IMG/VR virus record: IMGVR_UViG_3300045999_009004
Location: 1-23,756 of that record
Strand: one strand, 5' to 3'
DNA length: 23,756 bases
From: a virus
Under the pieces are notes generated by a model, which worked only from the letters and a program-made list of their open reading frames with translations, ran no database searches and was not told the DNA's origin. Positions 5,434 through 23,756 of this stretch are shown piece by piece (position 1 is the first letter of the stretch; each line of letters begins with the position of its first letter). The translations under genes were made by a program, and so were the position numbers.

Positions 5434-5889
5434 ATGGCAGATGGTAGAACATATGGAATAAATTTTCCTTTTAACGATTCTCGTAATGGGAAATATTTAA
5501 GTCTTTCAACGGAGGCGGCTCAAGAGATTAGAACAGATTTAATACATCTTTTGTTAACAAGAAAAGGTACTAGATATTATTTACCTGATTTTGGGACAAG
5601 ATTGTATGAATTTATATTTGAACCAATGGATGGTCCAACATTTTCAGAGATTGAAGCGGAAATTAGAGCGTCTGTTGAAGAATACATACCAAACATTACT
5701 ATTACTAATATAAGTGTAACTTCTGCAGATATGGGGGAAGAAGATAAAGGAACTTATGTTGATGGTGATGAACGAATTTATAGAGTTCCCGGAATCGGAC
5801 TTAAAGAACATACCGCTAAGGTTAAAATTGAATACACAATTAGTGATGACGTTTTTAACGCTAGTGATTTTGTAATAATTAACATTTAA
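5434..5889 (+). CDS. 25: Baseplate wedge protein, gp25-like
   Basis: A 151-residue protein of the GPW/gp25 family, the small baseplate protein of T4 and P2 that sits at the sheath-baseplate junction and helps start sheath assembly. The family signature is clear: TRYYLPDFGTRL (46-57) followed by IFEP (61-64), matching the conserved arginine, PxFG and FEP elements. A helical segment then leads to a beta-rich C-terminal half. T4 gp25 is about 132 residues, so this one is slightly longer, with an extra loop around residues 108-125. It is the first gene after a strong terminator and lies 4 bases before the gp6-like gene, the same 25-6 order as in T4. The leader lacks a Shine-Dalgarno sequence. Confidence 0.93.
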   Translation: MADGRTYGINFPFNDSRNGKYLSLSTEAAQEIRTDLIHLLLTRKGTRYYLPDFGTRLYEFIFEPMDGPTFSEIEAEIRASVEEYIPNITITNISVTSADMGEEDKGTYVDGDERIYRVPGIGLKEHTAKVKIEYTISDDVFNASDFVIINI

Positions 5890-5893
5890 TATT

Positions 5894-7732
5894 ATGGCTA
5901 ATAAGAAAATATCGTATACTACGAGAGACTTTCAATCAATAAGAACAGAGTTAATAAATTTCACAAGAACTTATTATCCTGAATTAATCGATAACTTTAA
6001 TGACGCGGGGGTTTTCTCGGTGTTATTAGACTTAAACGCTGCGGTTACTGATAACTTACAGTTTAATATTGATAGAAGTATCCAAGAAACTGTATTACAA
6101 TATGCACAACAAAGGTCATCAATATTTAATATTGCGAGAACATACGGGTTAAAAGTTCCCGGACAAAGACCATCAGTTGCTTTAGTTGATTTTTCAATTA
6201 CAGTTCCTGCTTATGGGGATAAAGAAGATTTAAGATACTGTGGTATATTACGTAGAGGTTCACAAGTTAGTGGTGCCGGTCAAATCTTTGAAACGGTGTA
6301 TGATATTGACTTTTCGTCACCAATTGGTGCTGAAGGATTCCCTAATAGATTGAAAATACCTAATTTTGATTCGAATAATACATTAATTAATTATACTATT
6401 GTTAAGAGAGAAACGGTTGTTAATGGTGTTACAAAAGTATTCAAAAAAGTTGTAACCGCAAATGATGTTAGACCATTTTTAGAGGTATTTTTACCTGAAA
6501 AAAATGTTTTAGGTGTAACTAGTGTTTTATTAAAAGATAGTGCACAATATTCTAATGTACCTTCAGTTCAAGAGTTTTTAGGTTTAGATAATAGATGGTA
6601 TGAGGTAAATGCTTTGGCGGATAGTAGAGTGTTTGTTGAGGACCCGACTAAAGTATCAGACCAACCTGGAATCAAGGTAGGTAAGTATATTGAAACAAGT
6701 AGTAAATTTATAACAGAATTTACTCCGGAAGGATTTATGAAAATGACTTTTGGAGGTGGTAATCAATCAGCTGATGAACAATTACGAGAATTCGCAAGAG
6801 AGGGTTATAATTTGAATTTATACAAATATTCAAATAATTTAGCATTAGGTAGTACATTAAAGGCTAATTCGACATTATTCGTTCAATATAGAATTGGTGG
6901 TGGTACCGGAAGTAACTTGGGGGTAAATGCTATTACTCAGGTTGGTACAGTTTCATTTTTTGTGAATGGTCCAAGTCAAAGTCAAAATACAAGTGTTATC
7001 AATTCATTATCGTGTACTAACGTAACTGCCGCTATAGGTGGAGCCAATTATCCAACAACAGAAGAGGTTAGAAACTTAGTTGCGTTTAACTTCTCGGCTC
7101 AACAAAGAGCGGTTACCATAAATGATTATGATTCTATCATTAGAACAATGCCTTCACAATTTGGGGCTCCGGCTAAAGTTGCTATTACTGAAGAAAATAA
7201 TAAAATTAAAGTTCAAATGTTATCATACGATGAAAATGGTAACTTAACTAATATTGTTTCAAACACATTGAAAAATAACGTGGCGAATTATCTATCAAAT
7301 TATAGAATGATTAATGACTACGTTTCAATTGAAACTGCTAATGTTATTGATTTAGGGGTAAATGTTGATATAGTGTTAGATAATAGTCAAAACCAAGGTG
7401 CGGTAATTTCACAAGTTATTAATCTTATCACAACATTTTTTGAACCAACAAACAGACAGATGGGGGAGAATGTTAATGTTTCAAATTTAAGACGTTTAAT
7501 TCAAAGTGAAAACGGGGTAATTTCGTTATCTGACATTATTTTCTTTAATAAAGTTGGTGGGGAATATTCGTCTTCTCAAACTTCTCAAAGATATTTGGAT
7601 TCAGATACTAGACAAATTGAATTAGTTGACGATACTATCTTTGCAGAACCAAGTCAGATTTATCAAGTTAGATATCCGGGTAAGGATATTAACATTAGAG
7701 TTAAAAATCTTAAAACAGTTAACTTCACATAA
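5894..7732 (+). CDS. 6: Baseplate wedge protein, gp6/J-like
   Basis: A 612-residue homologue of T4 gp6 (660 residues) and P2 gpJ, the dimeric backbone of each baseplate wedge that links neighbouring wedges into the hexagonal ring. The N-terminal region shows the family pattern: TTRDFQSIRTEL (9-20), then a segment with GVFSVLLDLNAAVTDN (39-54) and a helical run with QQRSSIFNIARTYG (92-105), corresponding to the gp6 region in which a short helix is followed by a YTPxxxRxS-like turn. The middle is beta-rich, and the last 230 residues contain INDYDSIIRTMPSQFG (about 408-423), typical of the J-like C-terminal domain. It lies 4 bases after the gp25-like gene. A 71-base gap follows. Recognition is by pattern and gene order; assignment is strong. 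Confidence 0.88.
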   Translation: MANKKISYTTRDFQSIRTELINFTRTYYPELIDNFNDAGVFSVLLDLNAAVTDNLQFNIDRSIQETVLQYAQQRSSIFNIARTYGLKVPGQRPSVALVDFSITVPAYGDKEDLRYCGILRRGSQVSGAGQIFETVYDIDFSSPIGAEGFPNRLKIPNFDSNNTLINYTIVKRETVVNGVTKVFKKVVTANDVRPFLEVFLPEKNVLGVTSVLLKDSAQYSNVPSVQEFLGLDNRWYEVNALADSRVFVEDPTKVSDQPGIKVGKYIETSSKFITEFTPEGFMKMTFGGGNQSADEQLREFAREGYNLNLYKYSNNLALGSTLKANSTLFVQYRIGGGTGSNLGVNAITQVGTVSFFVNGPSQSQNTSVINSLSCTNVTAAIGGANYPTTEEVRNLVAFNFSAQQRAVTINDYDSIIRTMPSQFGAPAKVAITEENNKIKVQMLSYDENGNLTNIVSNTLKNNVANYLSNYRMINDYVSIETANVIDLGVNVDIVLDNSQNQGAVISQVINLITTFFEPTNRQMGENVNVSNLRRLIQSENGVISLSDIIFFNKVGGEYSSSQTSQRYLDSDTRQIELVDDTIFAEPSQIYQVRYPGKDINIRVKNLKTVNFT

Positions 7733-7803: not shown

Positions 7804-10800
7804 ATGCCAAAATCATATAGAATACGAACTGACGTAGGGGTTGACAAATCCGTTAATATATCAATTGACCAAGAATTTGAATACTTGGAGATTTTATCTC
7901 TTAAAGTTTTACAGAGTGATATCTATACTCGTGTATGTTCAGATTATGGTGTGGTTATTGGTCGTGTTAGTGTTAATGATGGATTTGGAATACCAAATGC
8001 TAAAGTATCTATATTTGTACCTCTAAGTACTGAAGATGCTGATAACCCTATAATTTCTGAAATATATCCTTATAGAACTGTTTTAGATGTTAATGAGGAT
8101 GGTTATAGATATAACTTGTTACCTTATGAGCCGTCATATAGTGCTCACATTCCTACCGGTACATTCTTTTCAAGAACTGACGTATTAACTAACCCAACAC
8201 TTATTGAAGTTTATGATAAGTATTACAAACTTAATGCGGTTACAAATCAAAGTGGTGACTTTATGATTTTTGGGGTTCCGGTGGGGTCTCAAACACTTGT
8301 TGTAGATATTGACTTATCGGATATTGGTGAATTCTCTCTATCTCCTCAGGATTTGGTTAGAATGGGTATTGCTACAGAAACACAAGTAAGTGGTACAAGT
8401 TTTAAGAAATCTACAAATCTAAAAGAATTACCTCAAATCGTTAATTTTACAAGAACTATTGTGGTTGAACCTTTGTGGGGACAAACAGAAGTTTGTAACT
8501 TAGGTATTACAAGAACCGATTTTGATTTAAGTAATGAATCAAATATTAATATTGAACCTACGGCAATTTTTATGGGTTCGTTGATTTCTACAAATGATGA
8601 TGAATTTCAAAAAAAGAATTGTAAACCAAAACCAAAATCGGGTGAACTATGTTCATTAACAACAGGACCGGGGGAAATATTAGCAATTAGACAAACAATT
8701 TCCCAAGATGTTAATGGGTATCCTGTTTTAGAAACTTTTGATTTGGAACAGGGTGGTCAAGTTATTGATGAAAATGGGGTTTGGTTAATTGATGTCCCAA
8801 TGAATTTGGATTACTTAGTTACCAATGAATTTGGTGACCAAATTATTTCTGATGACCCTAAAAAAGGTATTCCAACAAGAGGTAAATATAGATTCAAAGT
8901 TAAATGGAATCAATCACCAACATTAAATGAACCAATTAGACGAGGTTACTATTTAGTACCTAATATTAAAGAACACGGATGGGTTAGTTCAGATAGACAA
9001 GATGACCCATTTAACTTACCTAATAATGACCCAAATTATATTAAAGCGGTGAAATCGTATTCATTCAGTTTAGATTGGAACGATTACCCGGATATTCAAG
9101 GAGCAATAGATTGTGAAGATACATTTTATATGATGTCATATAATAAGGTTTATACAGTGTCTCAATTAATTACTCAATATAGAAAAGGATATAATCCAAA
9201 TAGATTTGTATCAATTAAGAATATTGTTAGTAGTGACTGCAGTAGTGATACAAATAAATTCCCAACAAACGATGCGGTATATCGGTTTGATTTAATATTT
9301 TTCTTATTAAAGATTTTATCTTATGTATTTAAGCCTACATTAATAGGTCTTGTTATTCTTGCTCACATTCTTTATTTTTTAGTTGTTATTTTAGGGATTA
9401 TTCTGACGTTAATTATTTTAGTTATAGGTACCATTGTAATACTTCTATGTAATTTTGTTAGACTTATAATTTCGGCAATTAATGCACTTCCGGGAATAAA
9501 TCTTTCAAAACCAGATTGTCCGGATTTCCAAGACTTACTAGATTTAATTGATAAAATTTTAAGTTTAGCTGATTTTTTTAGAAATATTAAAATTCCTAAT
9601 TTATCTTATCCTGATTGTGATGTTTGTAGCTGTGGTGCACCTGACCAAGTACAGGTTCAAAATGATGAGGAAATGGAAGCGGCGTCTACAACCATTCAAA
9701 ATAGTGGGGGTTATGGTGTTGTTACAAATTTCTTTTTAGACACCTCATATCCAATAACAGGTACAACAATTTTTAATACACAAAATAATTATTTTTATCA
9801 GCAATTATTTACCGGTTCCGAATGGACTGCGGGAGGTCAATATGAAGCACAAAATGTTTTAGCTAGAGCACCTCAATTAATTACAATCACTCAAACACCT
9901 GGTGGGGCTCCTCCACAAAACCTCACCGATACATTTACATCAAGTATTCCACTTGGTGAGAGAATAAATTTATTTAATACTAAAGCAAAATATTTTAACG
10001 GTCCTCAGGATAAATCGAGTATCGTTCTAAACGGTACTTGTAGAATATCCAATTCGGCAACACCAACACCGGGTGCGGGTAATATTTTAACGATTCAAAG
10101 TATTAATAATCCGTGGTTATTTGTTGGGGCGGTATTAAGTGGTTCCGGAATTGCTCCGGGGACAACAATATTATCATATATTGGAGGTACGGGTGGAGTA
10201 GGAACATATATTGTATCAATATCACAATTAGTGTCGTCAGGAACTAATTTTACAGTACCAAATAGTGCAATTGATTCTCCGGGTTCTATACCTAATAATG
10301 ATAATCCGGGTGGTGGTGTTAATAGAATTAAAGTTAAAGTTGCTCCTGAAATTTCAACTAACTCAAGTAAATTTCACTTAGATAATGTTGTTGCTTTAGT
10401 AGTTAAAGACGGTTTATTATCAAAATTCCAATCAGGTAAAGTTATTACATTTCAAGACCCTCTTATGAGTTTAGATTCTAATATGAGTGGTGCAACATTA
10501 AATTATAAATCGGCACAATCAATTGTTGGTGATGTTATAACACCTCTAATTTCGGGTAAAGCTAAAGTTAATAACTCACCAGCATTACCGGTAGATTCTG
10601 GTAATACTTTAACGGTGACTAATGTTACTTATAATGGGTTAATTCCGAACACTAAGATTAGAATTCAGGGAGATGTTGATGCCTTAGGAAATCAAAATAC
10701 TAGAACAATAATATCTCAAGCTCCGGTAACACCTAATTCAAGTGAGGTTCTAAATGGTGTTGGTAGATATACTATTTCAGGTGGTGTACTTTTAATAACT

Positions 10801-13800
10801 AATCCTGTTAAATTTGTTGTTGTAACGCCAACCACAAGAACATTAACATATGCTGACCCATCAGGTAATGGAACTAATATTCCTGTAACATATGATTTAG
10901 AACTTACCGGTGATACAATATATCCTCAATATGATTATCAAAAATTTCCAATAGATTTAGAGTATTACCAAGTTATAACAGGTATGACTTATTCTGATTA
11001 TCTTTCATTAACCAATCAAACACCAAATACATCGGTAACAAGTTGGGATAATTTAACCTTTAATAGACGATTTTTAGATAATGATACTAAAATTTATAAT
11101 GTTCACGGATTTATTGGTGATTGGGGTAGATATAATCAATTTGGTGGTACTGCGATAACTCCAAATCCTGATTATGGTTTAACTTATCCTGCGGTAACAC
11201 AATATAATTTTAATGACCAATTTAAGGATATTAATAAACAAGGTGTGGTATTTTTAGTAAGAGGGGTTGACCCACACTCAACTCGAGTTAATATTGAATA
11301 CGATTTAAGTAAATTATTTGGTTTTTATAATTTTGGTAGTGGACCTATTATAAGTGGAAAATTCAAATTGAATCACCCAATTAAAGGAGATTTCAAAACG
11401 GTGAATCATAATAATATTAATTTTAATACGGATACGGATTCTTCTTATTCAAATTTACCTTTATATTATAATTCATTTCATATGACTTTGGCACCAAATG
11501 GTCCAATTATTACTGTTCCTAACCCTATACAACCAACACAACCACCATATAATCCACCAATTGTAATTGGTTCAGGGTTTAGTTCATTTACAAGTAATAT
11601 GATTTCTTATTACTCATCATTTGATAATTCAACAATTAGTAGTAATTTTAATCCGGGTAATGGGTGTAGTTACTCAAATCCACCATCAGTAGGTGGTTTT
11701 GGACCTTGGGTACCACCGGTTCCACAAATAACTAATGGAGCTCAAGTAAACACAAAAGGTGTTAGACTAAGACAATCTACTTGGGGACCAATACCGTCAA
11801 CATCCCCTATTAATTTATCGTCAGTACAAGATAATAGGACTCAAGGAAATAATGGGTTTGTTGTTGAATGGAAACAATACGCAACGGTATCACCATCACC
11901 ATTGATTAATTGTTTTACCACATATTCTTATGGGGTTAGATATAATACAGATTCAAATGGTTTTGGTACAGATACAACAAAAAATAGAGGTTATTTTGAA
12001 ACTGAAATTGTTGAAGGTTCGGGATTTATGTATCAAGATGTTGATATGAGTCAATCTTTTTATGTAACTGATTCATTGGGTAATGTTGTTTGTCAAAATA
12101 ATGGTGGTAGAAGGGCTGCTGGGTACTATTATTCTCCGGGTTATTCTCAAACAAATACGACTATTCAATTTACTAACCGATTAAAAACGGTTATGAGGTC
12201 AGATAAATTACCAACATCAACAGCGTTACAACCAAGTTATTGTAATAGTTTTCCATTACAAAACAATAATAACTTTAGTGCTTTTATTTTAAGTGATAAT
12301 GGTACGGTGGCGGGTGTTGGAGGTTCAGGTGGCTCTACATCAAATACTAACTCTGCAGATATTGATGATGGTACAAAACAAATTAATGGTGTTTTAGAAT
12401 CATTCGAATGTTCTCAAATGGCACCATTACCTTGTTATGGAGTAAGAGTAAATCCGCCGGACCCAAATACAGGTTTAGAATCGACTGATTTTTATGTTAA
12501 AGACCCTAGCAATTCTTGTTGGGAAACAGGACCACTTTCGGGGGCAAGAGGTATGGAAAATGGTTGTTATGTTTTTGTTGCGACACCTTTAGTTACATTA
12601 TTTAATGGTCACGATTTATTGGCAATTGTTGAATGGTCAGAAAGAATTTTAATTACGTTTGGTGCGTGTAGAGATGTTTTTTCACATCTTTTTACTAATA
12701 ATTGGGTTAATGGTACGTTATACGCTTGGTCATTTAATAATAATGTGACTTATTCCGACCCTACATTACCAAACGGTAATCAACCTAGTAGTGAATTTTG
12801 TACTGATACATTAATGTTACACCCAACAACAAATAATTTTTACTATAGAAGTAGTCCTTACGATGGTGTTAATTTTATTGGGGCTGATAGACCTCCTGCG
12901 GAAGGTTTATTCGGAATAACATTTGGTCCGTATAATGGTAACTTTAGGAATTTATTGTATCCGACGACAATTGTTGACTTAGGTCCAAGAAATAATTATA
13001 TGCAAGAAATTGTATTGTCGGATGAATTTGATGGGTATGTTGCAAGTAAATTAGGTCCTACTACTTTCCAAGATGTTTCGGATTTACTACAATTATTTAT
13101 CATTTCAAGACTTGGTAATTTAAGTACTTTAGATATCATTGCAAGTGGTGTTGGATTAGGACCTCAAATTGAATCTTTTTTTAATAGAAATGAAGAAAGT
13201 GGTGTTTTAGGTATTGGTGGTACAAGTATGGTTGACGCTGATTACGCACAAATGGTTGCGATAAATTCTGAATTAGGTGTTATACCATTTGATAAGATAA
13301 ATTATAAAGATTATACTCAATCAGGAATTCAAGACCCTGTATTCATTGCGGGGAATAGTTATAAAAAAGTTGTTATTGGTGTATTTTATAGAGCTGATTT
13401 ACAATTAAGAGACTATATTTCACCTAAAAGAACAATAATTGATGGGTTAGCACCAATTACATCTCAAGTAAATGGTGTTAATTGTAATGTAAATAATTTT
13501 CCTGTGAAATCTCAGAGAGTACCATTTTATAATTGGGATATTAGAACTGATGGTCCAGGATATAATGGTCAAGGAACTATTTTTGGTAGTCAACATAATG
13601 ATTGGTATTCTGACCCTATTAATGGTGGTGGTTTTATGTCCCATAGATATCAAGATTTGAAAAGAGAAGACCCAAATTCAAGATATTTTAGAACAAGAAA
13701 CAATTCTACTTTAGGGTTAAATTATTCGCCCGGATTTATCTCAGCGGTGGATACTAGACATACTAACCCTCCGGGTGGACCGTCGGGTGTTTATTATACA

Positions 13801-13992
13801 AATAGTGACGGTTATTATAATTATTCTGCTAATATATTAGATTGGGGTAATGGTCAAAATAATCCAACACCGAGAGCGATTAATACCGGAGCACCATTTT
13901 ATTTCTATTTTGGATTGAAAAAAGGACAAACGGCGTACGATAAATTTTCAAGAAAATGGATACCAAATCAAATAGTGTTAACATATGAGTAA
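7804..13992 (+). CDS. Giant tail/baseplate structural protein with membrane-like segment
   Basis: A 2062-residue protein, the largest in the window, of unknown name. Residues 48-72 and 147-168 together resemble a carboxypeptidase-regulatory/Cna-B-like beta domain (GRVSVNDGFGIPNAKV, then TNQSGDFMIFGVPVG), with about 75 residues inserted between the halves. Residues 495-562 are strongly hydrophobic; from Lys510 to Arg553 there is no acidic or basic residue except His521, enough for two membrane helices. A cysteine group follows: Cys572, then Cys605, Cys608 and Cys610. Residues about 746-818 and 918-1005 look like two copies of a small beta domain (GSGIAPGTTI and GTGGVGTY in the first). The rest is rich in Asn, Ser, Gly, Tyr and Thr, typical of fibres and baseplate decorations. 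It lies in the baseplate operon and its end overlaps the next gene by 8 bases. A structural role is likely; a membrane-contacting role is inference. Confidence 0.85.
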   Translation: MPKSYRIRTDVGVDKSVNISIDQEFEYLEILSLKVLQSDIYTRVCSDYGVVIGRVSVNDGFGIPNAKVSIFVPLSTEDADNPIISEIYPYRTVLDVNEDGYRYNLLPYEPSYSAHIPTGTFFSRTDVLTNPTLIEVYDKYYKLNAVTNQSGDFMIFGVPVGSQTLVVDIDLSDIGEFSLSPQDLVRMGIATETQVSGTSFKKSTNLKELPQIVNFTRTIVVEPLWGQTEVCNLGITRTDFDLSNESNINIEPTAIFMGSLISTNDDEFQKKNCKPKPKSGELCSLTTGPGEILAIRQTISQDVNGYPVLETFDLEQGGQVIDENGVWLIDVPMNLDYLVTNEFGDQIISDDPKKGIPTRGKYRFKVKWNQSPTLNEPIRRGYYLVPNIKEHGWVSSDRQDDPFNLPNNDPNYIKAVKSYSFSLDWNDYPDIQGAIDCEDTFYMMSYNKVYTVSQLITQYRKGYNPNRFVSIKNIVSSDCSSDTNKFPTNDAVYRFDLIFFLLKILSYVFKPTLIGLVILAHILYFLVVILGIILTLIILVIGTIVILLCNFVRLIISAINALPGINLSKPDCPDFQDLLDLIDKILSLADFFRNIKIPNLSYPDCDVCSCGAPDQVQVQNDEEMEAASTTIQNSGGYGVVTNFFLDTSYPITGTTIFNTQNNYFYQQLFTGSEWTAGGQYEAQNVLARAPQLITITQTPGGAPPQNLTDTFTSSIPLGERINLFNTKAKYFNGPQDKSSIVLNGTCRISNSATPTPGAGNILTIQSINNPWLFVGAVLSGSGIAPGTTILSYIGGTGGVGTYIVSISQLVSSGTNFTVPNSAIDSPGSIPNNDNPGGGVNRIKVKVAPEISTNSSKFHLDNVVALVVKDGLLSKFQSGKVITFQDPLMSLDSNMSGATLNYKSAQSIVGDVITPLISGKAKVNNSPALPVDSGNTLTVTNVTYNGLIPNTKIRIQGDVDALGNQNTRTIISQAPVTPNSSEVLNGVGRYTISGGVLLITNPVKFVVVTPTTRTLTYADPSGNGTNIPVTYDLELTGDTIYPQYDYQKFPIDLEYYQVITGMTYSDYLSLTNQTPNTSVTSWDNLTFNRRFLDNDTKIYNVHGFIGDWGRYNQFGGTAITPNPDYGLTYPAVTQYNFNDQFKDINKQGVVFLVRGVDPHSTRVNIEYDLSKLFGFYNFGSGPIISGKFKLNHPIKGDFKTVNHNNINFNTDTDSSYSNLPLYYNSFHMTLAPNGPIITVPNPIQPTQPPYNPPIVIGSGFSSFTSNMISYYSSFDNSTISSNFNPGNGCSYSNPPSVGGFGPWVPPVPQITNGAQVNTKGVRLRQSTWGPIPSTSPINLSSVQDNRTQGNNGFVVEWKQYATVSPSPLINCFTTYSYGVRYNTDSNGFGTDTTKNRGYFETEIVEGSGFMYQDVDMSQSFYVTDSLGNVVCQNNGGRRAAGYYYSPGYSQTNTTIQFTNRLKTVMRSDKLPTSTALQPSYCNSFPLQNNNNFSAFILSDNGTVAGVGGSGGSTSNTNSADIDDGTKQINGVLESFECSQMAPLPCYGVRVNPPDPNTGLESTDFYVKDPSNSCWETGPLSGARGMENGCYVFVATPLVTLFNGHDLLAIVEWSERILITFGACRDVFSHLFTNNWVNGTLYAWSFNNNVTYSDPTLPNGNQPSSEFCTDTLMLHPTTNNFYYRSSPYDGVNFIGADRPPAEGLFGITFGPYNGNFRNLLYPTTIVDLGPRNNYMQEIVLSDEFDGYVASKLGPTTFQDVSDLLQLFIISRLGNLSTLDIIASGVGLGPQIESFFNRNEESGVLGIGGTSMVDADYAQMVAINSELGVIPFDKINYKDYTQSGIQDPVFIAGNSYKKVVIGVFYRADLQLRDYISPKRTIIDGLAPITSQVNGVNCNVNNFPVKSQRVPFYNWDIRTDGPGYNGQGTIFGSQHNDWYSDPINGGGFMSHRYQDLKREDPNSRYFRTRNNSTLGLNYSPGFISAVDTRHTNPPGGPSGVYYTNSDGYYNYSANILDWGNGQNNPTPRAINTGAPFYFYFGLKKGQTAYDKFSRKWIPNQIVLTYE
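9286..9489 (+). other. Region encoding probable membrane helices inside the giant tail protein
   Basis: These codons give residues 495-562 of the giant protein. The core, 511-549, consists almost wholly of Ile, Leu, Val, Phe and Gly. Glycine 531 could mark a turn between two helices of about 20 residues. Lys503 and Lys510 precede and Arg553 follows. An amphipathic continuation (554-562) leads to a proline-glycine. A signal peptide is excluded because nearly 500 residues come before. Confidence 0.75.
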
Positions 13993-17883: not shown

Positions 17884-18792
17884 ATGGCAACAGGAACCTA
17901 TGGTACTATTAGACCGGCAGATGTATCACCTCAAGATGTGGAGATTATCTTAAATTATACACCAAGTCGTGATGAAACAGATAACTTTGTGTTGACAACA
18001 TTGGATGCGTTATCGGTGTTAAGACCTTATTACAATAATGATGAAACAGGTGGGAATCCTAATGTTGAAATTTTAGGTGGTTTATATAATTTAAGACTAC
18101 CTGCGGAAACTTTTAATAAATTAGGTATATACACTTTATTTATTAGACCGGCTCAGATTAGAACTAAAATATTAGATTGTGGTGTGTTATCATCATTACC
18201 TAATGTTAAAGGAATTGTTATTGACTTAACTGATGTGCCATCAAAATTTAGAAACAAATTTGTTAATCAAGGTTTAGTTGGTTTTAGAGTTGAATATTTG
18301 AATTCGGATGGTACTAAAATACCTAATTTCTTTAGATTAATTACGTCTTCATTTTTTTGTGAACCAGTTGTTCAAAATTTAAGTAATACTTCAGCAAAAG
18401 GTATTAGATATAGATATACAGATAATAACACTAATTTAATTTTCTGTACATTATCACCATCTTCGGCACCAACAAATAAACCGAATGCAACACCATTTAT
18501 TGGACAGCCAAATCAAGATATTATTATAACTAATACTTTCTTCAACCCTATTACTATGGATGTTGAGATTGTTGAACACGATTTCTCAACATTAGCAATT
18601 GCGTTATTTGGTAATCAAACTAAATCTATGGATGACGGAATTTACACGTTATACGATAGTCAAAATAATATTTACAAACAATACAACTTATACGAAATTA
18701 GAGACCAATTTAATAACTTACTTTATGAAGTTAGAAGAGATAGAGGTGATAATATTGATTTTAGTAAAAACTTTACAAACATAACAGAATAA
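17884..18792 (+). CDS. Baseplate/tail structural protein, 302 residues, unknown family
   Basis: A 302-residue soluble protein I cannot assign. Residues 1-110 have a mixed alpha/beta look with a hydrophobic strand GLYNLRLP and a later LGIYTLFIRP; the middle contains a short Ser/Pro/Thr-rich linker around residues 195-215 (PSSAPTNKPN), which may separate two domains. The C-terminal part reads like a beta-stalk with periodic aromatic residues (IYTLYDSQNNIYKQYNLYEI, about 255-274). Its position between the PKD-like protein and the gp7/gpI-like 1014-residue protein suggests a baseplate part. Its TAA overlaps the next ATG by one base (TAATG), suggesting translational coupling and matched amounts of the two products. 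Confidence 0.78.
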   Translation: MATGTYGTIRPADVSPQDVEIILNYTPSRDETDNFVLTTLDALSVLRPYYNNDETGGNPNVEILGGLYNLRLPAETFNKLGIYTLFIRPAQIRTKILDCGVLSSLPNVKGIVIDLTDVPSKFRNKFVNQGLVGFRVEYLNSDGTKIPNFFRLITSSFFCEPVVQNLSNTSAKGIRYRYTDNNTNLIFCTLSPSSAPTNKPNATPFIGQPNQDIIITNTFFNPITMDVEIVEHDFSTLAIALFGNQTKSMDDGIYTLYDSQNNIYKQYNLYEIRDQFNNLLYEVRRDRGDNIDFSKNFTNITE

Positions 18793-21700
18793 TGGCAGTA
18801 ACAAAATACACTTGTCCTCCACAATCAGCTACCGGTGCCGGTACATTTTCTGATGACTTAGTTGGTTTCCAATTAGTCACGGGGGGTGGTTTAACGCAAG
18901 GTAATTTTGAATTTGTTACATCAGTAAATGAAAAAAATAATAGAACATTTACTACCGGTAATTTTTCAGAACCAATAAGTTTAGATTCGTTAGGGGTTGA
19001 AAGTTCGATACAATCAAGACGTATTGTTGAAAATAATTTTAAGGTTTATCCTAATTTTGATTTAAGTCAGGTAACAAATTTTAGTTTATACGGGTCGATG
19101 GTTAAAAGAATTTCAACGTCGGTTGAAACTATTATTAGTCAATTTCCTGCGGGTCTTGAATCAACATTTTTAGGTATTAACTATGTTACGGGAGCTACCG
19201 CAACAAATATTAGTTTTGATTCACAACAAAATATAACAACATTTGATTTAGATGTTGCAAGAATTAGAAATCCGTTTAATATTGATTTTACAGTAAGTTC
19301 AACTAGAAATTTATCGTTATTGGAGATACCGGTTTCACCTTTAAGAGACTTAACTAAACAATATACAAAATATTCGTTGTATTATAATAATTCTGGATAT
19401 ACTGTTGTGTCAATAGTTCCAACAACATCATTAACGACGGGTATTCTAACTATTAGAGTTAATGGTAATCCTTTTTCATATCAAACAGTGATTTATGATG
19501 ATTTAGTTGTTAGACCAAATGATTATGAGGTTGCTAGAGTTTTTAATGAAAACTTAGATGAGGTTGAAAATTTTTTATTAAATAGAACGGTTACACCAAT
19601 ATATACATCTACATTTAAGGTTCCTAAAGAAACTGAAAATGGTAGTTACTATACTTTTAATCAAACAATAACTTGGCCTTTGTATGGTAATTGGAATTTA
19701 GATATATTAACTCCTTCATTTACAAATTATCTTGTTAAATTAAATGAAATTTCTGAATCATTAGACACTTACAAAACAAATTTAGTTTCAAGATTTTTAA
19801 CAACCGGAGCATTTAAGGATTTTGACACTGTTGACCAAAAAATGGAAAAAGTGTTACAAGTTTATGGTAGAAGTTTTGATGAAACTAATAAATTTGTAAG
19901 TGCTTTGGCATATATGAATTCGGTTCATTATAATGTTGGTAATGATATACCATCTCAATTATTAAAAAATTTATCACAAACATTAGGTTGGACAATTAAT
20001 ATATCACCTATTACTAATGATGACTTTTTAAGTTCGGTGTTTGGACAAACAAACACTGACCAATCAAGTTTTACAGGTGTTGGTATTGCTTCAACTCCGG
20101 ATGAATTAAATTATCAATTTTATAGAAATTTAGTATTAAATTCGGCTTACTTATTCAAATCAAAAGGTACTAGAAAATCTATTGAGACTTTAATGAGAAT
20201 GATTGGTGCACCGGATGCTTTGGTAGAGTTTAATGAATATATTTATTTGGCTGACGGTAGAATTAATATGAGTGAATTTGATAAACAATTCGCACAAATA
20301 TCTACAGGAACTTATTTGAGAGAATTACCGGTATTAGAGCCGGGTAATACATATACGATTCACGGTCCACTAAATGTATATACAGGTTTTACTACAACAT
20401 CAATTATGAAAGACGTAAATGTTACGTTAAATGAATATCCGATTGATAGTTTAGGTTACCCTTCTATGCCGGAAGATAGTGATGTGTATTTCTTCCAAAT
20501 GGGTAGTGGTTGGTTTGAATCAACACCACAACATAGAGCACCTCAACAAGTGGATTTAACTAATAGTGTATTTACGGGAACAAACCCTAATTACCAAACA
20601 AGTCTAAAACCATATACCTATGGTCAAGAATATTTGAATAATTATAGACAATTACCATTTACTGATTTAGGGTTTAATTTAACGGCACAAGTTGATAATA
20701 ATAAATCTTGGGTTGATAATGAAGTTGGTTTAAGAAGTAATCTTGATGGTAGTTATAATGCGAGATATTATACTGAAAGTGATGATTTAGTAATCAATGT
20801 TAAAAATGTTGATTTATTTATGAATCCTGCTCAAGGGTTATCATATGACGTTTGGTATCTATCAAGAACTTATGATTTTCCAATATCAGATAATGGGTTA
20901 GGTTGGGTTGAACCAACAATTTGTGACCCATTTCCAATTGTAGATTATCCAACAAGAAAAAATGTTGATTGGACCGTAATTGACCCCCAACCAAAGAGAA
21001 AGACTTTCTTTGAATTTGCTCAAACATTTTGGTTAAACACTATTAACGTTAGAAATAGACAATTTACTACTGATGGTAAAACAAGTGGTTACCCAAGATT
21101 ATCTTCAATCTATTGGAATTATTTAGAATCCGAAAAAATTGCTGGTGTTCAAAATGATAATTTCACATATAAGACAATGATTGAGTATGTGGATGGTATG
21201 GGTGATTATTGGATTAGATTGGTTGAACAATTAATTCCTGCAACCACATTATGGAATACGGGTGTCAAATATGAAAATTCAATTTTCCATAGACAGAAAT
21301 TTGTGTGGAGAAGACAAATGGGTTGTGAGTTAATACCAATCCCTTGTACTCCTTGTTCATTAACTACCGGTTTATTTAGTAATGATTGTCCAACACAAAT
21401 AGTTGAATGTCCAATGTATCCGTTTAATACGACATTTAATGGTGTGTTAGGTACTGTAATAAATCGATATTTGTCGAATAATACTAATTATAATATTAGT
21501 AATTGTGATGAAACAACTATTAGTTCTGAATGGTTTGTTGAGGTATATATAGATAATACACTTAAAATTAGTTTACCGTTTTTTAACGGTGTTGGTTATT
21601 TTAATCCAACACCTTGTATTGAAACTACAACTTTTTCGGGGGCAAGTGCACCTTGTAATTCTGTTTGGGAGAAAGCGGTATTAATTGCTTTAGACGGTTT

Positions 21701-21836
21701 AGAAACTTTTGGTTATGATTATTATATAACAACAGAAGGTAATATCGGAGTATATAATATTATTTGTGATATTGATAGAAGTGAAATTAATTTTAGATTA
21801 AGCGTGGGAATAAATTTTAATATTTTGTGTAGCTAA
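18792..21836 (+). CDS. Large baseplate/tail protein with gpI-type motif and Cys-rich end
   Basis: A 1014-residue protein. Residues about 300-480 are helical and contain FKSKGTRKSIETLMRMIG (455-472), closely matching the RRGTRxGL(E) helix of phage tail-protein families of the P2 gpI/TIGR02242 type, which lie in the baseplate wedge and, in contractile injection systems, correspond to the gp7-like position. The N-terminal third is beta-rich. Residues 845-873 hold five cysteines (845, 852, 855, 866, 873), including a CTPC pair, and more cysteines follow to the end, with Cys as the penultimate residue. No membrane span. Both junctions are one-base TAATG overlaps, with the 302-residue gene before and the SprB-repeat gene after. 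A wedge component that also anchors the repeat protein is a reasonable inference. The precise T4 counterpart is not certain. Confidence 0.8.
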   Translation: MAVTKYTCPPQSATGAGTFSDDLVGFQLVTGGGLTQGNFEFVTSVNEKNNRTFTTGNFSEPISLDSLGVESSIQSRRIVENNFKVYPNFDLSQVTNFSLYGSMVKRISTSVETIISQFPAGLESTFLGINYVTGATATNISFDSQQNITTFDLDVARIRNPFNIDFTVSSTRNLSLLEIPVSPLRDLTKQYTKYSLYYNNSGYTVVSIVPTTSLTTGILTIRVNGNPFSYQTVIYDDLVVRPNDYEVARVFNENLDEVENFLLNRTVTPIYTSTFKVPKETENGSYYTFNQTITWPLYGNWNLDILTPSFTNYLVKLNEISESLDTYKTNLVSRFLTTGAFKDFDTVDQKMEKVLQVYGRSFDETNKFVSALAYMNSVHYNVGNDIPSQLLKNLSQTLGWTINISPITNDDFLSSVFGQTNTDQSSFTGVGIASTPDELNYQFYRNLVLNSAYLFKSKGTRKSIETLMRMIGAPDALVEFNEYIYLADGRINMSEFDKQFAQISTGTYLRELPVLEPGNTYTIHGPLNVYTGFTTTSIMKDVNVTLNEYPIDSLGYPSMPEDSDVYFFQMGSGWFESTPQHRAPQQVDLTNSVFTGTNPNYQTSLKPYTYGQEYLNNYRQLPFTDLGFNLTAQVDNNKSWVDNEVGLRSNLDGSYNARYYTESDDLVINVKNVDLFMNPAQGLSYDVWYLSRTYDFPISDNGLGWVEPTICDPFPIVDYPTRKNVDWTVIDPQPKRKTFFEFAQTFWLNTINVRNRQFTTDGKTSGYPRLSSIYWNYLESEKIAGVQNDNFTYKTMIEYVDGMGDYWIRLVEQLIPATTLWNTGVKYENSIFHRQKFVWRRQMGCELIPIPCTPCSLTTGLFSNDCPTQIVECPMYPFNTTFNGVLGTVINRYLSNNTNYNISNCDETTISSEWFVEVYIDNTLKISLPFFNGVGYFNPTPCIETTTFSGASAPCNSVWEKAVLIALDGLETFGYDYYITTEGNIGVYNIICDIDRSEINFRLSVGINFNILCS

Positions 21837-23756
21837 TGAGTTGTTTATTAAGTGTTGTAAGAAGTTTTACGGGTGATTGTACCAATAGTAGTATTGGTGC
21901 GATTAACGTTGAGATAACGGGTAGTGCTCCTGATTATACAATACAGTGGGTACAACCATCGTCTTATGGTACGATTGCTTTAGGTACGGGTGTTACAGGA
22001 TATACTCAAACCGGATTATCAGGTGGTACATATATCTTTAATGTTATTGATGCTTGTTCTCCGGATAATACTATTTTACCGGTTAGTTTTTATATTTCAA
22101 CAGGTACTTGTGTTAGTATATCTTCAACTCAAGATACTACGTGTAATTTAGATAATGGTGTATTAACAGCAACCACTGCTAATTTATACAATGAAACCGC
22201 AAGTTTTTATTTATATCACAATAGTCTTGGATATGTTACGAGTGGTATTAGTTATACTAACGATTATATTTTTACTGATTTAGTACCGGGTACTTATTAT
22301 GTCATTGGAGATGATGGTGGTGGATGTACAGGTAAATCAGAAACTTGTATTGTTAAACCATCGACAGAATTAGATTTTGGGTTCTTTGTTGTTAATAATT
22401 CAGGTTGTGGTAGTAATACCGGTAAATTATATGTAACAGGATTAACAGGTAACGCACCATATTATTATTTATGGTCAAACGGTACAATTGATGATAATAT
22501 TATTGATTTACCTTCGGGTAATTATTCGGTAACAATAACCGATAGTAGTGGATGTATAGTTACAAAAAGTGTTAATGTTAATGATGTGCCTTTAATTGGG
22601 TTACTTTCATTTAGCAATGTTATACCTGACTGTTTTATGACAAATGGTTCAGTTACCATAAATATTACAGGTGGTACAGCTCCATATCTTTTTTCAGGGT
22701 CTAATGGTTATACTGAAGTATCTTACTCAACTAGTTATACTTTTAATAATTTAGGTTCAGGTAATTTTATTGTTTCAGTGACTGACGCTGGATTATGTAA
22801 TTTTGTTGCCTCTACAGCAATCATCGCACCTCAAGGATTCTCCGTTGTAAATGTCGGAATTGTTAATTCTACTTGTAATAATTCAACCGGAGCCTTATCA
22901 CCTATTATACTTTTTGGTCCAAATCTAACATATACATATACTTTAACATACCCTGATGGGTTTATTAGTACAAATACTACGACAAGTACGTTTTGGGAAT
23001 ATACTAACTTATCATCAGGAACTTATACATTAACCATTAATGGTGGGGAATGTACTTTTACTGAACAATATGAAATTAATAATACGGTACTTTATACTTT
23101 AAGTGCAACAACAACACCAACAACTTGTAATCAAAATAATGGTTCAGTATTGTTAGAAATATCTCAAGGTGGTGTTGCACCGTATACGTTTAGTATAACC
23201 GGTATACCACCAATTCAAACTAGTTTTTCTTCGGTAACATTTAATAACTTAGCCTCAGATACTTATACCGCTACAGTTATTGACTCTAATGGGTGTGCAC
23301 AAACCGATACTATAATAATTAATGCGTCTGAGACGGTTGATTTTAGTTTACTTGGTACTGATGCTACCACAGGGTCTAATGGTATGGTAGAATCGTTTAT
23401 TACGAGCGGTACACCACCATTCACTTATTTGTGGAGTAACGGTCAAACAACACCAAATATTACCGGATTAAATGAGGGTAATTATACTTTAACAGTAACA
23501 GATATAAATGGATGTGTAAAACAAAGAACGGTTAGCATTTATGGGTATGATAAAATTTCTTCATACCAATCATATACTATCTGTGATGATGTTTTTGCTG
23601 ATGGTGGAAATATTAAAAAAGGAATAAAAGAAATGTATATTGAAGGATTCTTTGATTCAACATCTGATGATTTTAATTGTATTTTAGATTCTGCTACATT
23701 TATTGCTCAAGTTACTGTTGGTGATATTACAAATGTTGTTCCATTTTATTGGTCTC
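21836..23756 (+). CDS. SprB-repeat tail/fibre protein (5' part, runs off window)
   Basis: An open frame of 640 codons from an ATG that overlaps the previous TAA by one base; it continues past the right edge, so length and C-terminus are unknown. About seven repeats of 70-90 residues fill residues 9-567. Each opens with a Cys and an N-G/S-G turn, has an aromatic APY-like strand, a L-x-x-G-x-Y-x-V-T-V-x-D strand and closes with a G-C. Paired cysteines are at 15/74, 103/164, 191/240, 266/321, 347/406 and 431/487; in the seventh repeat the first Cys is replaced and only Cys560 remains. The pattern fits the SprB repeat (Pfam PF13573) of Bacteroidota gliding adhesins. There is no signal peptide, as expected for a phage-assembled fibre. 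A different domain begins near residue 570. A host-binding role is inferred. Confidence 0.85.
   Translation, partial: MSCLLSVVRSFTGDCTNSSIGAINVEITGSAPDYTIQWVQPSSYGTIALGTGVTGYTQTGLSGGTYIFNVIDACSPDNTILPVSFYISTGTCVSISSTQDTTCNLDNGVLTATTANLYNETASFYLYHNSLGYVTSGISYTNDYIFTDLVPGTYYVIGDDGGGCTGKSETCIVKPSTELDFGFFVVNNSGCGSNTGKLYVTGLTGNAPYYYLWSNGTIDDNIIDLPSGNYSVTITDSSGCIVTKSVNVNDVPLIGLLSFSNVIPDCFMTNGSVTINITGGTAPYLFSGSNGYTEVSYSTSYTFNNLGSGNFIVSVTDAGLCNFVASTAIIAPQGFSVVNVGIVNSTCNNSTGALSPIILFGPNLTYTYTLTYPDGFISTNTTTSTFWEYTNLSSGTYTLTINGGECTFTEQYEINNTVLYTLSATTTPTTCNQNNGSVLLEISQGGVAPYTFSITGIPPIQTSFSSVTFNNLASDTYTATVIDSNGCAQTDTIIINASETVDFSLLGTDATTGSNGMVESFITSGTPPFTYLWSNGQTTPNITGLNEGNYTLTVTDINGCVKQRTVSIYGYDKISSYQSYTICDDVFADGGNIKKGIKEMYIEGFFDSTSDDFNCILDSATFIAQVTVGDITNVVPFYWS
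21860..23536 (+). repeat. Seven diverged SprB-type repeats at protein level
   Basis: The encoded units begin near residues 9, 97, 185, 260, 341, 425 and 505 of the partial right-edge protein. They are recognisable by the spacing of cysteine, glycine-aspartate-tyrosine and TDxxGC elements rather than by DNA identity. The nucleotide sequence shows no long tandem identity, so the repeats are old or under diversifying selection and not a recent expansion. Confidence 0.75.

Follow-up and report, generated by a model that had tools for sequence, protein, structure and literature searches.

A conserved seven-unit SprB-type repeat protein is a probable receptor-binding tail fibre of large lake phages that probably infect Bacteroidota

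Among described phage proteins, the nearest in kind to the one analysed here are the tandem BACON-domain tail proteins of crAss-like phages (PMC6949934), which also consist of a tandem Ig-like domain typical of Bacteroidota proteins, are also encoded in the tail region and also have a poorly conserved C-terminus; some of those phages additionally have T9SS proteins. With regard to gene position, the closest parallel is phage P2 (order W-J-I-H), in which the fibre gene gpH directly follows the last baseplate gene in an operon with gp25/W and J homologues. We analysed a viral DNA stretch of 23,756 nucleotides (IMG/VR record IMGVR_UViG_3300045999_009004, hereafter the window) that ends in a gene for a repeat protein of this general design. 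Unlike the crAss-like proteins, it has a SprB-type domain with conserved cysteines near both unit ends, seven fixed units, then a connector, and tips in which swapped domains can be recognised, and it belongs to what are probably jumbo lake phages. Compared with P2, the likeness is one of gene position, no sequence relation being claimed, and five extra large genes are present here. An Ig-like tandem stalk with a swappable tip is already known; the SprB-type, seven-unit version is new.

The repeat ORF starts with an ATG at 21836-21838 on the plus strand and extends to 23755, with 640 residues visible and the frame still open at the contig end; since the virus record of 23,756 bases stops inside this ORF, its own genome does not supply the rest of the gene. 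An earlier note, made from the letters of this DNA alone, had described a one-base overlap with the preceding gene and "at least six, possibly seven" SprB-type units. Consistently with this, the ATG shares base 21836 with the preceding stop codon (TAA, 21834-21836), and alignment resolved seven units at 21854-23545, beyond which a non-repeat domain begins. The family assignment was borne out as well, PF13573 being the best family in a profile search and the only Pfam family above its cut-off (E 3.4e-17, 62.2 bits versus a cut-off of 28, five stretches), with Ig_J and Y_Y_Y below theirs. Both a Pfam stretch and the alignment delimit unit 1 (21854-22114), unit 3 (22379-22600), unit 4 (22601-22843), the top-scoring unit 6 (23096-23335) and unit 7 (23336-23545), the last of which lacks the first cysteine in the window protein and across the family. 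Unit 2 (22115-22378) and unit 5 (22844-23095) are under the Pfam single-stretch threshold and were defined by alignment and cysteine pattern. The remaining 23546-23755 encode the start of a conserved connector domain, about 150 aa long in relatives, in which a hypervariable tip usually comes next.

Upstream, the window genes lie on one strand in the order helicase and ribonucleotide reductase, gp25-like and J/gp6-like baseplate genes, five genes with no convincing family match, a gene for a 1014-aa protein and the SprB ORF. The firm baseplate genes, a gp25/gpW-like wedge gene (5434-5889, plus strand; PF04965 6.3e-12, phrog_261 1.7e-18) and a gp6/gpJ-like gene (5894-7732, plus strand; PF04865 4.5e-7, phrog_219 1.8e-22), are 14-16 kb upstream of the SprB ORF. 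The statement that the ORF directly follows a baseplate gene was therefore right about baseplate genes upstream on the same strand and went too far for the immediate neighbour (18792-21836, plus strand), whose 1014-aa product gave no significant database match, no PDB sequence match and a structure model with a pLDDT of 42. A short motif in this protein resembles P2 gpI, and one of 33 members of its family matched Tail_P2_I at E 0.34. Comparison of the family with the gpI family profile was weak (P about 0.014-0.019) and beat 60 of 60 column-shuffled controls; comparison with one single P2 gpI gave nothing. The 1014-aa gene may be the P2 gpI equivalent, a weakly supported assignment for which these profile matches are suggestive. 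Those five intervening genes, like the 1014-aa gene itself, recurred in 79-80 of 80 related viral loci, whereas gp25 and J mostly fell beyond the 10 kb fetched for each locus. A 2062-aa tail-operon protein encoded at 7804-13992, with no convincing family match, was kept in 79 of the 80.

These relatives were collected by a search with the 1014-aa protein, which returned 94 viral stretches, 80 of them kept, on contigs of up to 318 kb. The earlier note had proposed looking for the same gene after gp25/gp6-like operons elsewhere, and a SprB-repeat orthologue was indeed beside the same neighbour in 72 of the 80 viral loci, that is, in all those whose contig extends past the 1014-aa gene; it starts at most about 55 bp from the end of that gene, and in the other eight the contig stops first. 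PF13573 scored above cut-off in all 20 of the larger related records tested. A bacterial-chromosome origin was ruled out, as the record is viral and the relatives have genes for capsid, portal, terminase and baseplate. In 37 of the 80 stretches (L006-L085) the contig stops less than 10 kb downstream from the end of the 1014-aa gene, against one that stops upstream; this excess is perhaps a sign of population heterogeneity in the fibre region, with which it is compatible, and other causes are possible.

Complete orthologues ranged from 714 to 1498 aa and comprised a trunk of seven units plus connector (residues 1 to about 720; column occupancy 0.89-1.0), past which alignment conservation collapsed. 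All 67 orthologues with a full trunk had seven units of near-constant length, so the repeat array is not a product of chance. Moreover, units at the same position in different phages were more alike (median 46-59% identical) than the window protein's own units among themselves (21-37%), which, together with the constant unit lengths, argues for an old array of fixed number that has neither expanded nor contracted. A few orthologues are nearly tipless, such as that of L083, which ends at 714 aa.

Beyond the trunk, 43 distinct tips, a few of them cut by contig ends, fell into 26 groups. Domains recognised in 35 scanned tips were DUF285 (3), phosphatidylethanolamine-binding protein (PEBP; 3), FISUMP (2) and CBM_4_9 (1), the majority of tips having no recognised domain. 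Across five close relatives, the upstream gene was 0.82-0.92 identical at the DNA level and the trunk 0.70-0.85; identity fell to 0.38-0.51 in the tip and rose again to 0.75-0.93 in the opening part of the next gene. Such a dip would be the trace left by distal cassette exchange. The protein thus combines a conserved proximal part with a hypervariable distal part showing module exchange, as expected of a tail fibre or receptor-binding protein. No reverse transcriptase (RVT_1) was found in 20 related records, many of them fragments; a diversity-generating retroelement is therefore not indicated, and we set aside tip variation driven by one. In one relative the tip holds a Hint/intein-like stretch (L041:15184-16203; CFIKGTKITLASG), an identity for which Pfam gave no support. 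In another, a downstream cluster on the opposite strand (L091:5994-17119) contains more fibre-like and Cys-rich genes, one with a FISUMP domain in the same genome as the fibre and another with a sub-threshold SprB match.

The trunk was modelled from the sequence of a relative, L010, whose identity to the window protein is 87% where the two overlap. The model consisted of a chain of beta-sandwiches and a mixed alpha/beta connector (mean pLDDT 81, pTM 0.38), and its PDB fold matches were Ig/FN3 strings and, at the top of the Foldseek list, GhpA, the grappling-hook protein of Aureispira. Kinship to GhpA was rejected, since VIA-align places it among generic Ig/FN3 strings, a likeness at the level of fold only. 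The top viral fold match was A0A6J5LD72 (UniProt), from an uncultured Caudovirales phage, with 33% identity over the whole trunk. This 714-aa protein apparently corresponds to the trunk alone, without a tip, unlike most of the fibre orthologues; it already bears the UniProt name "SprB repeat", so databases had some trace of the family. Our literature searches found no paper describing its role and nothing relevant on SprB repeats in phage tails.

The SprB label nevertheless says little by itself about gliding, because PF13573 also scored above cut-off on Ig-like proteins of enterobacterial phages, namely a T5-like pb10 decoration protein, a hoc-adjacent protein and a T4-type fibritin whisker. 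The Ig-domain decoration and whisker proteins concerned are encoded at L111:1255-1998, L112:1147-2205 and L114:1-2193. By these profile scores, the Pfam model responds to more than Bacteroidota adhesins. In the enterobacterial proteins Ig families outscore PF13573, whereas in the window protein SprB scores best; placement in a general Ig-like family with no preference for SprB, which would have undone the original call, was thus not observed for the window protein, although the specificity of the label proved limited.

Only two cellular relatives were found, with 27-38% identity. Bacteroidota T9SS adhesins with SprB repeats, for instance the L092 protein (38% identity in the best segment), share a Pfam repeat family with the phage protein; this cellular adhesin combines a signal-like N-terminus with a type B sorting domain for T9SS, and the phage fibre has neither. 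Maximum 12-residue hydropathy at the N-terminus was 0.55-1.79 in 72 orthologues (1.30 in the window protein) versus 2.27-2.50 in export-type SprB proteins, so that no orthologue had a strongly hydrophobic N-terminus by this measure, a crude proxy for a signal peptide compared with a trained predictor. T9SS sorting domains (PF18962, PF13585, TIGR04131) were not found above cut-off in the complete orthologues scanned (Pfam, NCBIfam), nor in the tips scanned, a result that applies to the relatives, the window protein's own C-terminus falling past the contig end. By the sequence features tested, the fibre protein is a member of the PF13573 repeat family, yet no T9SS adhesin.

Regarding the host, ribosomal protein S21 (bS21) was encoded in four of eight records tested (G018, G011, G012 and G017). 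Chen and colleagues described bS21-encoding lake phages that were assigned to Bacteroidetes hosts (PMC9723584), in which bS21 lies opposite the terminase/portal/protease/capsid block. The same layout was present in G018, with bS21 on the strand opposite the terminase, portal, protease and major head genes. By this resemblance, from which the host assignment is carried over, the lineage is probably one of large (jumbo) lake phages infecting Bacteroidota.

We consider it likely that the product of the gene is a virion tail fibre (receptor-binding protein) in this jumbo-phage lineage. The reading is based on the repeat architecture, the conserved position, the fixed number of units, the variable tip and the absence of secretion signals; from these we infer presence in the virion, orientation of the fibre and receptor binding by the tip. 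The N-terminal part would attach the fibre to the tail, and the seven Ig-like SprB-type beads would give a rod whose length is fixed (some 25-30 nm when extended, judging from typical bead size) and which holds the tip off the particle. The rod would be followed by the conserved alpha/beta connector and, at the far end, by an exchangeable C-terminal domain that may recognise the host surface. Use of the fold as a fibre stalk had been one of the options raised at the outset, and it is the one that fits best, because the trunk is conserved and fixed in unit number while the C-terminus is hypervariable. The other options, in which the SprB units themselves imitate or bind gliding or adhesin filaments of the host, would make the repeats the receptor-binding part; PF13573 is the top family of the window protein, the matching phage group has been assigned to Bacteroidetes hosts, and components of the Flavobacterium gliding machinery are suspected to serve as phage receptors (PMC7345892). 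Such a role is hard to reconcile, however, with repeats that are the conserved part of a protein whose C-terminus varies, with the low identity of the two cellular relatives and with PF13573 matches on enterobacterial decoration and whisker proteins, and we regard it as unsupported and improbable.

Those same enterobacterial matches, to PF13573-type Ig-like units in pb10, the hoc-adjacent protein and fibritin, leave somewhat more room for a neck whisker or a capsid or tail decoration that would have a loose hold on surfaces or glycans and would not determine the host, and the PDB profile matches of the fibre protein, although weak, were likewise to decoration and whisker proteins. The gene nonetheless ends the baseplate block, in a tail-operon position after baseplate genes and with conserved adjacency, as expected of a tail fibre; the head genes of the 318-kb relative are about 190 kb from the fibre gene, and C-terminal domains this large and exchangeable are what receptor-binding fibres typically have. 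We therefore hold the whisker or decoration role to be unlikely and retain the tail fibre.

A role outside the virion, as a phage-encoded adhesin exported by the infected host cell, derives its interest from two other phage proteins. LR756502, a 642-kb uncultured phage and the only match of the window protein among cultured or named phages, matched through an export-type SprB protein of 1670 aa (L094:10831-15840), in which a signal-like N-terminus and a T9SS type B sorting domain accompany thirteen SprB stretches. In the window's own lineage, the fibre and a separate 1855-aa SprB protein (L095:1425-6989, from contig positions 190.5-200.5 kb) are both encoded on contig G011, the second having a signal-like N-terminus, PKD and SprB units and a Por_Secre_tail (T9SS) domain. 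The trunk family has neither of these export features and is locked to the tail operon, the G011 export-type gene being in a different region of the genome; we rejected the fibre as a host-exported adhesin on the lack of signal and sorting domain and consider this identity very improbable. The 1855-aa gene is flanked by two genes that are near each other in other lineage members too, which argues against a chimeric assembly of G011, and one genome therefore holds the repeat in two contrasting contexts. Additional T9SS sorting domains were observed in L098 and L100 (contigs G017 and G011), in L100 on small proteins with signal-like N-termini. It is conceivable, although we find it doubtful, that the repeat is used twice, as a fixed-length stalk of the virion fibre and, in some relatives, as a T9SS-exported adhesin on the infected cell. 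If so, the exported phage SprB adhesin could, for example, block superinfection or alter host adhesion.

Receptor-binding proteins of large freshwater Bacteroidota phages are hardly known. A SprB label on a phage protein need not imply gliding. With the conserved stalk as a recognisable marker, the likely receptor-binding gene can be picked out in dozens of contigs, and the clear boundary between trunk and tip (about residue 720) delimits a natural collection of tips for possible matching to hosts.
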